Source: Deltaproteobacteria bacterium
Lineage (GTDB): Bacteria; Myxococcota; JACPTQ01
Assembly: GCA_016192705.1 (NCBI GenBank)
Contig: JACPTQ010000030.1
Span: forward strand, 1-64,000
Length of the DNA: 64,000 bases
Reading direction: 5' to 3'
Part shown: positions 44,060-51,260 of the stretch, one piece after another
How the letters are laid out: the number at the start of each line of letters is the position of its first letter
Position numbering within the stretch: the first letter of the stretch is position 1
Notes under the pieces: model-generated
Database searches by the model: none
What the model saw: the letters and a program-made list of their open reading frames with translations, nothing else
Told to the model about the DNA's origin: nothing
Position numbers and translations under genes: made by a program

Positions 44060-44867
44060 TCGTGCACTCTGGGTCGGCGGCGCCATGGTCGCGATGGTGC
44101 TCGTCGTCGCGCTCTTCGCGCCACTCCTCGCGCCGTACGATCCCGACGATCCGCGCCGCGCCGTCGTGCTAGCGTCACAGCTCGCGCCCCCCTCGTCCGC
44201 GCACCCGTTCGGCAACGACGAAAACGGCGGCGACGTCCTCTCGCGCGTCGTCTACGGCGCCCGCGTTGCCGTGCGTGTCGGCGTCGCAACGGTCGCTATC
44301 TCACTCCTCATCGGCCTCGCACTCGGCTGTCTCGCAGGTTACGCAGGCGGCGCCGTCGATGGAGCCCTTATGCGCGTAACCGAAGTCGTCATGGCCTTCC
44401 CGGGGATCCTCCTCGCCATCGCCATCGTCGCCGCCACGCGCCGCCCGAGCGAAGCCGCCGTCATCCTCGCGCTCGTCTCAACCGGCTGGGCCTCTTACGC
44501 ACGCCTCGCCCGCGGCCAGGTGCTCTCCCTCAAAGAGCGCGACTACGTCACCGCCGCAAAAGCCCTCGGCGCCTCGCCCTTTTTCATCGTGCGCCGCCAC
44601 ATCATCCCAAACCTCATCCAGCCGCTCGTCATCCAAGCGTCGTTCAGCGTCGCGGGCTCGATCCTCGCCGAAGCCTCGCTCTCATTTCTCGGCCTCGGCC
44701 CCGAAGGCTCGCACTCGTGGGGCGTCCTCCTCGACCAAGGCACGCAGTGGTTCGTCCTCGCACCGCACCTCGCCATCTTCCCCGGCCTCGCCATCGCCTT
44801 CGTCGTCCTCGCGTTCAACCTTCTCGGCGATGGCCTTCGCGATTATCTCGACCCGCGGCTCAAGTAG
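44049..44867 (+). CDS. ABC transporter permease (DppC/OppC type)
   Basis: 272 aa, ATG 44049 with GGGAG upstream. N-terminal helix (GGAMVAMVLVVALFAPLLAPY), then HPFGNDENGGDVLSRVVYGAR typical of DppC, five more helices, and the EAA motif TAAKALGASPFFIVRRHIIPNLI. Partner of the DppB-type permease. Its 3' end has a diverged copy (about 92% identical by eye) at 48458-48595, pointing to a paralogous transporter elsewhere. The last 8 bp overlap the minus-strand gene. Confidence 0.9.
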   Translation: MKHHRALWVGGAMVAMVLVVALFAPLLAPYDPDDPRRAVVLASQLAPPSSAHPFGNDENGGDVLSRVVYGARVAVRVGVATVAISLLIGLALGCLAGYAGGAVDGALMRVTEVVMAFPGILLAIAIVAATRRPSEAAVILALVSTGWASYARLARGQVLSLKERDYVTAAKALGASPFFIVRRHIIPNLIQPLVIQASFSVAGSILAEASLSFLGLGPEGSHSWGVLLDQGTQWFVLAPHLAIFPGLAIAFVVLAFNLLGDGLRDYLDPRLK

Positions 44868-45159
44868 CCGCAACTGCACCCGCTACCGCCTCCGCACCCG
44901 CACCCGTCGCCATTTTCAAGACGCAGCGCGGAAAGTCTTCGTCGAACATGCCGGACGAGACCGCACCCGACGCATCGAAACGGAACTGGTCGAACTTGTC
45001 CCTGGCGCGCCGAACATCGTAGAGCCGGATAAGCGTCTCGACGGCTTCGCGCTGCGCGAAGTAGTCGCGAAAGGGCGACAGCGAACCGTCTGCGTTTTCG
45101 ACGAGATGTGTAGAAAGCTCCCGGAGCGCCGACGTGAATCCCTCGGCATCGACGGCCAT
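44860..45159 (-). CDS. Hypothetical protein with a hexamer-encoded C terminus
   Basis: 99 aa from ATG 45159, preceded by AGAGAG. Sequence MAVDAEGFTSALRELSTHLV, then FRDYFAQREAVETLIRLYDV and FDEDFPRCVLKMATG, a plausible soluble helical protein with no recognised family. The last dozen residues (AGAEAVAGAVAAT) come from a CCGCNN hexamer tract at 44870-44912. The gene is convergent with the permease. It may be real or chance; composition is normal upstream of the tract. Confidence 0.5.
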   Translation of the reverse strand: MAVDAEGFTSALRELSTHLVENADGSLSPFRDYFAQREAVETLIRLYDVRRARDKFDQFRFDASGAVSSGMFDEDFPRCVLKMATGAGAEAVAGAVAAT

Positions 45160-45255
45160 CTCTCTGAGCAATGGCCAAGGCCCGGTTTGTTTGCAACTGG
45201 ACGTCTTTTCAAACAGCTAGGAATGTGAGATAAGTAATCGATCAGGGAGGTTCGG

Positions 45256-45537
45256 ATGGCGCGGATGGTGCAGTGTAAGAAGTTAAGTCGTGAGCTGCCG
45301 GGGCTAAATTTTAAGCCTTTTCAGAACGACCTCGGGCAGAAGATTTTCGATAACGTCTCAGAAGAAGCGTGGCGAATGTGGCTTGAGCACGCGAAGATGA
45401 TCATCAATGAATATCGGATGAACCTCGCCGATCCGGCGTCGCAGCAGAAGCTTCTCGACGAATGCGATCGATACTTTTTCGGTGAGGGTTCAGCGCTGCC
45501 GCCCGATTTCGTTCCGCAGACGCAAGCCGCGAAATAA
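45256..45537 (+). CDS. yggX: Probable Fe(2+)-trafficking protein YggX
   Basis: 93 aa. Recognised by MVQCKKLSRELPGL (Cys in QCKKL), KIFDNVSEEAWRMWLEHAKMIINEYRMNL and the C-terminal QKLLDECDRYFFGEG. YggX protects iron-sulfur clusters and is linked to iron supply and oxidative stress. SD GGGAGG. It lies 15 bp before the radical SAM selenoprotein gene, which may reflect a shared need for iron-sulfur cluster maintenance; the pairing is inference. Confidence 0.92.
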   Translation: MARMVQCKKLSRELPGLNFKPFQNDLGQKIFDNVSEEAWRMWLEHAKMIINEYRMNLADPASQQKLLDECDRYFFGEGSALPPDFVPQTQAAK

Positions 45538-45552
45538 CGTCCGAGCGATTCG

Positions 45553-47019
45553 GTGCGCGAAGAGGTGTCCGTGCATAGCGAGAGCGACGTTGTCGGATGG
45601 CGCGATCGGGGAGGGGTCGTCCTCGTGTCGTGCTATGAGCTCGGACATCAGCCGCTTGCGATCGCCTCGGTCGTGCCCCATTTCATCGAAGCCGGGTTTC
45701 AACCGGTTTGCGTTGACGTTTCGACCGAGCGATTCGATCCGGCGGCTGTTTCGCGCGCGCGCTTCGTGGCGATCTCGGTGCCGATGCATACGGCGCTTCG
45801 AATCGGCGTGCGGGTGGCTGAAGAGGTGCGGCGGGTCAACGGGAGCGCACAGATCGCGTTTTTTGGTCTGTACGCCGCGCTCAACCACGAATTTCTTCTG
45901 GGGCGTTACGGTGATGCGTGTCTCGGCGGTGAGACCGACGGCCCGTTGGTTGCGCTCGCCAAGAGACTCGAAGCGGGTGAGTCGCACGAGCAACTGGGCG
46001 CGATGTCAAAGGTCCACCTCGAACGGCCGCGCTTTTTTCTTCCCGTGCGGGACGGCTTGCCACCGCTCAGGCGTTATGCGCGGCTTGAGAAGGGCGGGCA
46101 GCAGATTTTGGCGGGCGCTGTCGAGGCGAGTCGCGGGTGTTTGCATCGGTGTCGCCACTGCCCGATCACGCCGATTTACAACGGGCGGTTCTTTGTGGTT
46201 CCCGAGGAGATCGTTCTATCGGACATCGCGGCGCTCGTCGCGCGTGGCGCGGGTCACATCACGTTCGCGGACCCGGACTTCCTCAATGGACCGACGCACG
46301 CCGTTCGGATCGCGCGGGTGCTGCACGCACGCTGGCCCGCGCTGTCGTTCGATTTCACGGCGAAGGTTGAACATCTTCTTCGTCACGCGGTGCTCGCCAC
46401 GGAGTTTGCGGCGCTCGGGTGCGCGTTCGTCGTGACTGCCGTTGAGTCGTTTAGCGACGTTGTGCTCGAGAACTTGAAGAAGGGGCATACACGCGATGGG
46501 GCGATTGCGGCACTTCGAATGGTGCGACAGGCCGGGATTTCGGTGCACCCGTCGTTTGTGCCGTTCACGCCGTGGACGACCCGCGGCGACTACGTGACGA
46601 TGCTCGACCTCTTGGAGGCTGAAGATTTGGTGGATAGCGTCGACCCGATTCAGCTCGCGATCCGGCTTTTGGTGCCGCCGAGATCCGCGCTCTTGTCCGA
46701 GCCGGTGATGACTTCGTATCTCGGTCCGGTTGACCGCGAGAACTTTGTGGTGCCGTGGCGACATCCCGACCCGTCGATGGACACGCTGCAGAGCGAAGTC
46801 GTCGCGATGGTGGCGGATGCCGTGGCGCGTGGGGAAGCGCCGGCGACGACGTTTCGCGCGGTGAAGCGGCTTGCGAGCGCGGGAAGCGATAGGACACTGG
46901 ATTTCGTCCCTCATCGCGAGCCGCCGCCGCGCCTCACCGAGCCGTGGTTTTGCTGAGCGGAGCCAACCGAGGGCCAGTTGGGCCTTCTGACGCCACTTCG
47001 CGAAGCTCGAGCGGTATGA
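45553..47019 (+). CDS. CUAEP-tail radical SAM selenoprotein (in-frame TGA as selenocysteine)
   Basis: 488 aa when TGA 46954-46956 is read as selenocysteine (U468). N-terminal cobalamin-binding-like fold (VVLVSCYELGHQPLAIASV), then the radical SAM cluster motif C196-x3-C200-x2-C203 (SRGCLHRCRHCPI). Without recoding the frame stops after TEPWFC; through the TGA it continues A-E-P-TEGQLGLLTPLREARAV to a stop at 47017-47019. The C-U-A-E-P tail matches a radical SAM family named for CUAEP or CCAEP endings. A stem-loop (CCAAC 46963-46967 / GTTGG 46977-46981, 9-base loop) sits where a bacterial SECIS would be. Start GTG 45553; GTG 45571 with GAGG upstream is possible. Reaction unknown. Confidence 0.85.
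46957..46985 (+). promoter_or_regulatory. Candidate bacterial SECIS element
   Basis: Directly 3' of TGA 46954-46956: stem CCAAC/GTTGG closing CGAGGGCCA, apical loop starting 11 bases after the TGA, near the position of the fdhF SECIS upper stem-loop. An alternative GGCC/GGCC stem overlaps it, so the exact fold is uncertain. Confidence 0.5.
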
Positions 47020-47026: not shown

Positions 47027-48277
47027 ATGAAGCGCATCTTGCTGCTCGCACCTGCGACGACGTATCGCGCGGGGGCGTTCTTGAAAGCGGCGCATGCGCT
47101 TCGGGTCGACGTCGTTCATGGGTCCGACGGCCCGAACCTTCTTTCCGCGATGCTTCCTTCGCGAATCGTCGAGCTCGATTTTCGCAACGCCGATCTTTCG
47201 GCGGACCGAGCCGCGGCCTTCGCCAAGTTGAACCCGATCGACGCGATCGTCGCCGTCGACGACACGACGACCGTTCTCGGCGCGCGTGTCGCCGCGGAGC
47301 TTGGCCTAACAGCGAATCCGGTTTCGGCCGTTCGAGCGACACGCGACAAAGCCCTCATGCGCAGACTGCTCGCTGGGTACGAAGCCGGTGACGTGGCGGG
47401 GGGTGAAACGCCTTGGTTTCAAACGGTATCGATCGACGACAACCCGCGCGAACGGTTTGAACGCGTTTCGTATCCGATCGTCATGAAGCCGACGCTTTTG
47501 TCAGCGAGCCGTGGCGTCATCCGCGCCAATTCGCTCGACGAATCGATAAGCGCGTTTCATCGCATCCGGCGAATTCTCGCGGCGCCTAATGTTGCAGGGT
47601 GCGGTGGAGCGAGTGATCAAATTCTCGTCGAGGAGTTTGTTCCGGGCATCGAGGTCGCCGTCGAAGCGCTGCTTTGGGGCGGAAAGCTAGAACTGCTCGC
47701 GCTTTTCGACAAGCCAGACCCGCTCGACGGGCCGTTCTTCGAAGAGACGATCTACGTGACGCCGTCGTCGCTGCCGGGCCCTGTTCAATCCGCCATCGCC
47801 CTTCAAACGGAGCGAGAGGCGCGCCGGCTCGGGCTTCGCGAGGGGCCCGTCCATGCGGAACTTCGGCTCAGTCCGCGGGGCCCCGTGATCATCGAAATCG
47901 CATCGCGATCGATCGGCGGCCTTTGCTCGCAGATGCTTCGCTTCGGCGCCGGAATGTCGCTTGAGGAGGTCATCTTGCGTCAAGCCCTTCATCTTTCGCT
48001 CCCGACGCTCGATCGCGAACGTGGAGCAGAGGGCGTGATGATGATCCCCATCCCACGCGAAGGGACGCTCGTGGCGGTTCGTGGTCGCGAGCAGGCTCTC
48101 GCGGTTCCTGGCATCAGTGACGTCATCATCTCCATTCGCGTTGGCGAACGCGTGGTTCCGCTCCCCGAGGGGAGTCGGTATCTCGGTTTTATTTTCGCGC
48201 GCGCGGAGACGCCCGATCGCGCGGTCGCTCTCCTTCGTGAGGCGCATGGACGGCTGGCGTTCGATATCGTCCCCTGA
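47027..48277 (+). CDS. ATP-grasp ligase next to the radical SAM selenoprotein
   Basis: 416 aa. N-terminal nucleotide-binding-like part (MKRILLLAPATTYRAGAFLKAA, VAVDDTTTVLGARVAAELGL), then the ATP-grasp core: YPIVMKPTLLSASRGV (ATP lysine), ILVEEFVPGIEVAVEALL, HAELRLSPRGPVIIEIASRSIGG (metal-binding E/E/N-like region). This resembles carboxylate-amine ligases such as L-amino-acid or dipeptide ligases. Seven bases separate it from the selenoprotein stop, so the two probably act in one pathway that forms and modifies a small molecule or peptide; substrate unknown. Confidence 0.85.
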   Translation: MKRILLLAPATTYRAGAFLKAAHALRVDVVHGSDGPNLLSAMLPSRIVELDFRNADLSADRAAAFAKLNPIDAIVAVDDTTTVLGARVAAELGLTANPVSAVRATRDKALMRRLLAGYEAGDVAGGETPWFQTVSIDDNPRERFERVSYPIVMKPTLLSASRGVIRANSLDESISAFHRIRRILAAPNVAGCGGASDQILVEEFVPGIEVAVEALLWGGKLELLALFDKPDPLDGPFFEETIYVTPSSLPGPVQSAIALQTEREARRLGLREGPVHAELRLSPRGPVIIEIASRSIGGLCSQMLRFGAGMSLEEVILRQALHLSLPTLDRERGAEGVMMIPIPREGTLVAVRGREQALAVPGISDVIISIRVGERVVPLPEGSRYLGFIFARAETPDRAVALLREAHGRLAFDIVP

Positions 48278-48317: not shown

Positions 48318-48455
48318 CCGCTTACCCCGGCGGCCATCCCATCACGCGGCCGGCCAACAAATGCGCATGAACATGAAACACCGTTTGCCCCGCGTCGGCA
48401 TTACAGTTCAAAACGACGCGATACCCAGCTTCGGCGTGGCCCAGGTCTTTCGCGA
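48318..48455 (-). pseudogene. Truncated copy of the HIT gene 3' end
   Basis: 138 bp that I find identical to 49659-49796, the last 45 codons and stop of the HIT gene. It lacks a start and fuses abruptly to the permease fragment. Identity implies a recent copy. Confidence 0.85.
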
Positions 48456-48457
48456 GG

Positions 48458-48595
48458 CTCCTCGATCAGGGCACGCAGTGGTTCGTCCTCGCGCCGCACC
48501 TCGCGATCTTCCCGGGCCTCGCCATCGCCTTCGTCGTCCTTGCGTTCAACTTGCTCGGCGACGGCCTTCGCGATTATCTCGATCCGCGCTTATAA
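48458..48595 (+). pseudogene. Truncated copy of a DppC-type permease 3' end
   Basis: 45 codons plus TAA matching the end of the permease at 44049-44867 ([20 protein letters not shown]...) with about a dozen silent or near-silent changes, so it derives from a paralogue rather than the local gene. A CCGCAC hexamer remnant follows (about 48603-48618), as it does at the local permease. The rest of 48596-48682 holds nothing I recognise. Confidence 0.85.
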
Positions 48596-48682
48596 TGCGG
48601 CGACCGCACCCGCTCCCCGCATCGCGGCCGCGATATTCCATTCTGTTTCCCATCGCCCCACGAACACCGACGGATCACGCTG

Positions 48683-49213
48683 TTATGACTCGGCGATCCA
48701 GTAGTAGCGCTTCAGAGGCCGGTTCGCATCGAGCGCCTTCGCCTCCCACAACGAGCCTCCGTTTCTTTCGATGACGCGAATGGAGGCCGCGTTTGTGTCG
48801 TCACACGTAACGAGCACCGCACCGAGGCCGAGCGCGCGAGCCACCGGCAAAGCCTGACGCAGCATCTCCGTAGCGACTCCGCGGCCTCGGAACGACGGCA
48901 CGGTGTCGTAGCCGATGTGGCCGCCTTCAATGCGAAGTGCGTCGTTCAATTCGTGGTGAATGGAGATACGCCCCACGAACTCGTCTTCCATCAATGCCCA
49001 AAGATGCGTCGTGGGAACGAACGTATCAGTTCTCCGATTCGAGTCGGCCAGCCTGCTCGCCACGAACGCGGCGAAATCGTGCTCGGCGATCTCGATGTCG
49101 CCTCCCATCCACCAGGGAAGGCCTTCGCTTCTGAATTCACGAAGCCCACGCAAGAAGCTCTCTCGACATCGCTCAGTGGGCGGAACCAGTTGGATCGTCA
49201 TTCGAGGCTTCAC
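48683..49213 (-). CDS. GNAT-family N-acetyltransferase
   Basis: 176 aa. Acetyl-CoA motif A is GGHIGYDTVPSFRGRGVATEML (R-G-x-G-x-A), followed by LVTCDDTNAASIRVIERNGG typical of RimJ/RimL-like and small-molecule acetyltransferases. GTG 49213 with AAGGTGA upstream; ATG 49201 is possible. Last gene of the thrC operon by spacing (6 bp after the lipoprotein stop). Confidence 0.88.
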   Translation of the reverse strand: MKPRMTIQLVPPTERCRESFLRGLREFRSEGLPWWMGGDIEIAEHDFAAFVASRLADSNRRTDTFVPTTHLWALMEDEFVGRISIHHELNDALRIEGGHIGYDTVPSFRGRGVATEMLRQALPVARALGLGAVLVTCDDTNAASIRVIERNGGSLWEAKALDANRPLKRYYWIAES

Positions 49214-49612: not shown

Positions 49613-49662
49613 CTCACAACTCCTTGCACGACTGGACGTTCCATCTGACGGTATTCTTCCGC

Positions 49663-49953
49663 TTACCCCGGCGGCCATCCCATCACGCGGCCGGCCAACA
49701 AATGCGCATGAACATGAAACACCGTTTGCCCCGCGTCGGCATTACAGTTCAAAACGACGCGATACCCAGCTTCGGCGTGGCCCAGGTCTTTCGCGAGGCC
49801 GATGTGCTCCGTCGGTATGATGAGCGTGTGCATCGGCGCACGCGGCGCGATGTCCTTAAACGCGACGCACCGCTCGTCGCGAAAAACGATCGTCCCTGGA
49901 ATTTCGCCGTCGCGAATCTTACAAAAAAGACAGTTCGCGGCTTCGTTCGACAT
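49663..49953 (-). CDS. HIT-family protein with an internal deletion
   Basis: 96 aa from ATG 49953 (SD CGGAGGTGA). HIT features: [53 protein letters not shown] with the HVHAH active site. Normal HIT proteins are about 110-120 aa; here the helix between PTEHI and GYRVVLN is shortened by roughly 20-25 residues. The catalytic His triad remains, so the fold may be retained as a nucleotide hydrolase. The 3' part is duplicated at 48318-48455, with the breakpoint near the shortened region. Confidence 0.82.
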   Translation of the reverse strand: MSNEAANCLFCKIRDGEIPGTIVFRDERCVAFKDIAPRAPMHTLIIPTEHIGLAKDLGHAEAGYRVVLNCNADAGQTVFHVHAHLLAGRVMGWPPG

Positions 49954-49955
49954 GG

Positions 49956-51260
49956 TCACCTCCGTTCGAGAGCTTGGTTGAGGTCGGCGATAAGCGTGTC
50001 GGTCGATTCGACACCGACCGAAAGACGAATGAGGTTGTCGGGAATGCCGAGCGCAGCGCGCTCTTCGGGCGTGCGGTCGTGGTACGACATGAACGCCGGC
50101 TGCTCAATGAGCGTGTCGACGCCACCAAGCGACGGCGCGATGCGTGCGAGTTTCACCGAATCAACGACACGGCGTGCGTCGCCGCGAACGATGAACGACA
50201 CGACACCGCCAAACCCAGTCATGATGCGCTTTGCGACAAGATGATCGGGATGCGACACTAGCCCTGGATAAAACACGCGGGAGACGCCGTCGTGCTCTTC
50301 GAGGGAGCGCGCGATCGCGAGCGCGGTGTGATTCTGCGCGGCAACGCGAAGACCTAGGGTCTTAACGCCGCGCAGGAGTCGTTCGCACGTCTCGGGCGAA
50401 GGGATTCCGCCGAGAACCGCTTCAGCGTCGCGAATGGCATTAACGAGCGGCTCCCGACCAATCACAACGCCGGCCAAGAGGTCGTTGTGGCCGCCGAGGT
50501 ATTTCGTCGCGCTGTGAATGACGAGATCGGCGCCCTGTTCGAGCGGGCGCTGGTTAATCGGGGTCGCGAGCGTCGCGTCGATAACGAGCTTCAACCCGCT
50601 TCGGCGCGCGCGCGCGATCGCCGCAAGCGCTGGCACGTCAACAACGCGCAAGTACGGGTTCGTGGGCGACTCCGTGAAGAGGACGCGCGTTTCTGGTCGA
50701 ATCGCCGCTTCGATCGCCGCAAGATCGGCCGGCGGCACGATCGTCGACTCAACGCCAAACCGCGCGAGAAACTCGGTAACAAACTGCCGCGTCCGCCGAT
50801 ATCCGTCGCTCGTGAGGATGATGTGCTTTCCGCGCGCAAGCATCGCCCAAAGCGTTGTCGTAATCGCCGCCATGCCCGACGCGAAAAGGCACGCCGCAAC
50901 GTCTCGCGCCGCCCCCGCTCCCGCTCCCGCCTCCGCATCCGCTACCGCACCGGTATCCACACCCGCCTCTGCTCCGGATCCTTCTTTCATATCGCTGCGT
51001 TTCTTCTCCTCCGATCTCCGTGTCTTAGTGCCTCCGTGGTTTCTCTTTTCTTCTCTTCCTCCCCCTCCCCCCTCAAGCGCCGCCAACTCGCGCTCTGCCG
51101 CGGCGCGCGTTGGATTGCCGTAACGCCCATACTCCGCGTGCGCGATCTCGCCGCGATGGTATGCGTCGAGCGCCGCACTGTTCGCGAAGGTGTACGTCGC
51201 CGTCGCAAACGTCGGCATCGTCAGCGCGTGTTCTGCGTTCTCGCGCCGTTCGTCACCCAT
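49956..51260 (-). CDS. Cys/Met-metabolism PLP enzyme (cystathionine gamma-synthase/lyase family) with a repeat insertion
   Basis: 434 aa from ATG 51260 (SD GAGGG), overlapping the thrC stop by 8 bp. Family features: [35 protein letters not shown], the PLP lysine K253 in [12 protein letters not shown]. Gamma-synthase, gamma-lyase or beta-lyase activity cannot be separated from sequence. About residues 64-118 ([14 protein letters not shown]... to [10 protein letters not shown]) are an in-frame insertion encoded by a CACGGAG-type repeat and a hexamer tract. Position after thrC suggests homoserine/threonine/methionine metabolism. Confidence 0.87.
50911..51060. repeat. Hexamer tract plus CACGGAG-type element inside the PLP-enzyme gene
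   Basis: CCGCTCCCGCTCCCGCCTCC onward (50911-50981) adjoins CTCCGTGTCTTAGTGCCTCC (from 51016) within 50995-51060. The frame of the minus-strand gene is kept through both. Confidence 0.8.

Follow-up and report, generated by a model that had tools for sequence, protein, structure and literature searches.

The closest described group for the locus studied here is NCBIfam family NF040546, an equivalog named "CUAEP/CCAEP-tail radical SAM (seleno)protein". No mention of CUAEP or CCAEP was found in the literature searched, and NF040546 was absent from the listing of a 2026 selenoproteome review. The nearest characterised relative is ArsL (NF040542), an enzyme of arsinothricin biosynthesis, for which transfer of the 3-amino-3-carboxypropyl group of SAM has been proposed as the chemistry (PMC8552651). 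The bacterial SECIS, for its part, has been described as a short hairpin that follows the UGA by a few nucleotides (PMC4607533).

In the window, that is, the whole stretch of 64,000 nucleotides analysed, the ORF at 45553-46956 closes with ...TEPWFC (the Cys467 codon being TGC, 46951-46953) and a TGA, beyond which the frame continues with AEPTEGQL... for 20 codons, or 21 with the TGA included, up to a closing TGA at 47017-47019 (Table 1). The first-pass annotation had proposed an in-frame TGA giving a C-U-A-E-P tail to a radical SAM selenoprotein, with 21 codons open to the TGA at 47017 and an N-terminal CYELGHQPL as a family trait; the frame and the match to NF040546 bore out this reading, the length of the open stretch agreed when the TGA was counted, and SCYELGHQPL was found near the N-terminus. 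The read-through protein scored 627.6 bits against NF040546 (cut-off 500), and the match, covering positions 1-467 of the 468 in the profile, extended to protein residue 477 beyond Sec468, so that the alignment with the family, which had been suggested as a check, runs through the tail. The gene is thus an additional member of a family already catalogued at NCBI, and since the model exists, the selenoprotein finding is correct but not new. GTG 45553 was the most upstream start choice; residues 1-17 showed no conservation, the first 10 residues were modelled at low confidence, and translation may actually begin further downstream. The structure predicted for the read-through protein had a pLDDT of 92.8, and C196, C200 and C203 were invariant among 59 aligned sequences. 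In such an enzyme the N-terminal domain would be of Rossmann type (B12-binding-like), the core would hold the [4Fe-4S] cluster and SAM, and a Cys-Sec pair would stand at the C-terminus.

Table 1. Positions of the selenoprotein gene, its elements and adjacent genes in the window
Feature	Position	Strand	Remarks
Fe(2+)-trafficking / oxidative damage protection protein, YggX type	45256..45537	+	Directly upstream, same strand
Predicted CUAEP-tail radical SAM selenoprotein gene	45553..47019	+	488 aa with Sec468; family match, read-through translation
Radical SAM CxxxCxxC, C196-C200-C203 (CLHRCRHC)	46138..46161	+	Pfam Radical_SAM at residues 191-352
In-frame TGA, read as Sec residue 468	46954..46956	+	Frame reading and relatives
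C-terminal tail AEPTEGQLGLLTPLREARAV	46957..47016	+	AEPT and the Q of EGQ conserved, remainder variable
SECIS-type hairpin GAGGGCC-AGUUG-GGCCUUC (predicted)	46969..46987	+	Begins 12 nt past the TGA; fold and comparison
ATP-grasp ligase with L-amino-acid-ligase C-terminal domain	47027..48277	+	Recurrent family neighbour

Relatives were sought by tblastn in contigs of other genomes, and 80 of the 205 loci that passed were fetched. The tail WFC[U/C][A/S]EP was kept in 79 of these 80, with S for A in one (L083); in the exception (L102), the match stops at query residue 446, so that the tail lies outside it. Relatives of the TGA type came from Rokuibacteriota, Nitrospinota, Planctomycetota, Acidobacteriota, Chloroflexota and Myxococcota, and those of the Cys type (TGC or TGT) from Nitrospirota and Ignavibacteria/Bacteroidota. 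In the phylum of the window itself, 30 of 195 genomes passed the family cut-off, with one in-frame TGA in 29 of the 30. The fetched relatives and the phylum loci together gave 81 TGA genes and 27 Cys genes. When Sec and Cys were placed as labels on a tree, four changes were the simplest account, at least two of them forced by well-supported branches. At the seventh position after the TGA, all 66 TGA genes having a Gln there used CAG, and both CAA and CAG occurred in the Cys genes. Homologues ending at the Cys with nothing conserved afterwards had been named as the contrary case; what was found was an exchange of Sec and Cys, and the conservation points to a functional tail. The expected truncation by gene callers was seen in the homologue of Thermomicrobium roseum (L136:7923-9386), the annotation of which ends at ...TESWFC, yet TGA-AEP continues in frame.

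In the predicted structure of lowest energy, the 7-bp hairpin (arms 46969-46975 and 46981-46987) is the central element. Its z-score against shuffled sequences, taken on the single sequence, was only -1.23, which is unremarkable and not significant, so that support for the hairpin comes from the comparison of Sec and Cys genes. Most of the 81 TGA genes had a stem of about 7 bp located 12 or 13 nt past the TGA with an AGUU-type loop. This comparison revealed that 1) the longest stem was 6.85 bp in TGA genes versus 4.48 bp in Cys genes, 2) the fold z-scores of the two groups differed (Mann-Whitney p = 6e-9), 3) 6.5 of the 7 pairs were formed in TGA genes versus 5.32 when the 3′ arms were swapped between genes, with GC, CG, AU and UA exchanged in a compensatory manner, and 4) the 27 Cys genes showed no such pairing by the same arm-swap test (4.07 versus 4.01 swapped). 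A predicted hairpin kept by compensation in TGA genes and absent in Cys genes is the signature expected of a bacterial SECIS; the stem-loop that the first-pass annotation had placed at SECIS distance thus held up in position, in covariation and in its absence from the Cys homologues.

The same genome was found to contain selA (557.8 bits), selB (score over the cut-off), selD (368 bits) and a tRNA-Sec gene, selC (76.4 bits, anticodon TCA); all four had been listed for checking, their absence being the other case that would speak against Sec. It was also noticed that this selD (L018, G000:C70:50295-51221) has an in-frame TGA within ...SHGAGUACK, so that SelD is a selenoprotein too and its gene the second of this kind in the genome.

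The ATP-grasp gene begins 7 nt past the true stop of the selenoprotein gene. Its counterpart in a Rokuibacteriota locus was 55% identical, and members of this ATP-grasp cluster were present at 25 loci, the window included. Among 114 neighbour proteins, counting the ATP-grasp of the window, the commonest Pfam domains were DUF169 (13), ATP-grasp (12), Fe-S_biosyn (11) and NifU (8); the genes recurring beside members of the family coded for the ATP-grasp ligase, for DUF169 proteins and for two kinds of Fe-S carrier, ErpA (ErpA/IscA-type) and Nfu. No ars genes appeared in the Pfam and NCBIfam tallies of family neighbours. Elsewhere around the gene, a short ORF on the minus strand (44860-45171), with 38 bits to the BPTD_3080 restriction endonuclease family over profile positions 86-174 of 970, looks like a remnant. 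The translated ORFs at 48361-48640 and 49624-49960 had long identical stretches in common, and 48361-48774 was also similar to part of the 44717-45022 ORF; these likenesses suggest duplicated fragments of transporter permease and HIT-type genes.

Could the TGA at 46954-46956 be an ordinary stop, with the protein ending at Cys467 and the downstream open frame being chance or leftover? As 66% of the 325 ORFs of more than 100 codons in the window likewise had at least 20 open codons past their stop, such extensions are common in this GC-rich window, an open frame says little by itself, and its length was dropped as evidence for Sec. However, the conserved tail peptide, the covarying hairpin and the family match raise the observation above chance: many phyla retain AEPT and the Q behind the TGA, relatives carry Cys codons where the TGA stands, the hairpin covaries in the TGA genes only, and the full Sec machinery is present in the genome. 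An ordinary stop is therefore highly improbable, and the TGA is almost certainly read as selenocysteine in a CUAEP-tail radical SAM selenoprotein. We infer Sec insertion from the family assignment together with the recoding signature, both shown here; the hairpin would direct the SelB-dependent machinery to place Sec at UGA 46954.

For the function of the selenoprotein, kinship with ArsL raises the possibility of an ArsL-type enzyme of arsenic chemistry making an organoarsenical, since the two are 33% identical over 403 residues, NF040542 was the second-best family (291 bits) and a vicinal CC or CU tail occurs in both. The ArsL cut-off of 450 was not reached, however, and the neighbour tallies lack ars genes, unlike the ArsL cluster; an arsenic function drawn from the kinship thus found no support in the neighbours and appears quite unlikely. 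The Cys-Sec tail might instead be non-catalytic, binding or receiving an Fe-S cluster or metal in an enzyme of Fe-S maturation, a role that would suit the recurrent ErpA/IscA-type carriers and Nfu as well as the YggX-type Fe(2+) protein upstream; but the carriers could be there just to supply the cluster of the enzyme itself, and neither the ATP-grasp nor the DUF169 neighbour is a protein of Fe-S assembly, which leaves this role improbable. From the invariance of the Cys-Sec pair and the vicinal Cys-Cys tail of ArsL (RCCLKC), the pair may have an active-site role, whether as a redox couple, as a radical or thiolate relay, or as a ligand of a soft metal, a metalloid or the substrate. The chemistry is likely a biosynthetic step. 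Plausibly, the 3-amino-3-carboxypropyl group of SAM would be transferred to an acceptor in the manner of ArsL, and the ATP-grasp enzyme next door would ligate the resulting amino acid, a sequence of steps that we put forward as a tentative hypothesis, with the chances well against it. The ArsL-like step is weakly supported, given that ArsL has a different tail and a shorter C-terminal part and that ars genes are missing from the neighbour tallies. It is conceivable, if unlikely, that the Cys-Sec pair holds a non-arsenic acceptor of this group and that the paired ATP-grasp ligates the product into an undescribed small molecule. Some genes with an RCCLKC tail also lie near an ATP-grasp gene; at an identity of only 22-23% to the ATP-grasp of the window, these enzymes offer a weak parallel, and their orthology was rejected on the same figure.

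The CUAEP case bears out that taking the TGA as a stop always costs the protein a conserved tail. Homologues of both the Sec and the Cys type are now at hand, together with a SECIS that covaries and gene neighbours that recur, as means to test the function of this widespread family, and the Cys forms of Nitrospirota could be expressed without selenium machinery.

Compared with known systems, the window protein shares with ArsL about 400 homologous residues, the domain order and a vicinal pair at the C-terminus (Cys-Cys in ArsL), whereas ArsL has RCCLKC as its own tail in place of CUAEP, lacks the stretch of about 50 residues preceding the CUAEP tail, and sits in ars clusters. The solved folds nearest to the predicted structure were those of OxsB, TsrM and AprD4, radical SAM enzymes that have a B12-binding-like domain, at 15-18% identity only; likeness to cobalamin-dependent radical SAM enzymes consists of this fold match and a sub-threshold match to Pfam B12-binding at residues 22-135 (22.1 bits versus a cut-off of 32.1). 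With the NF040546 family, the protein has in common a full-length match over the cut-off, the CUAEP tail, the CxxxCxxC core and the SCYELGHQP N-terminus; it was 45-57% identical to the fetched members, and no notable difference from them was observed.
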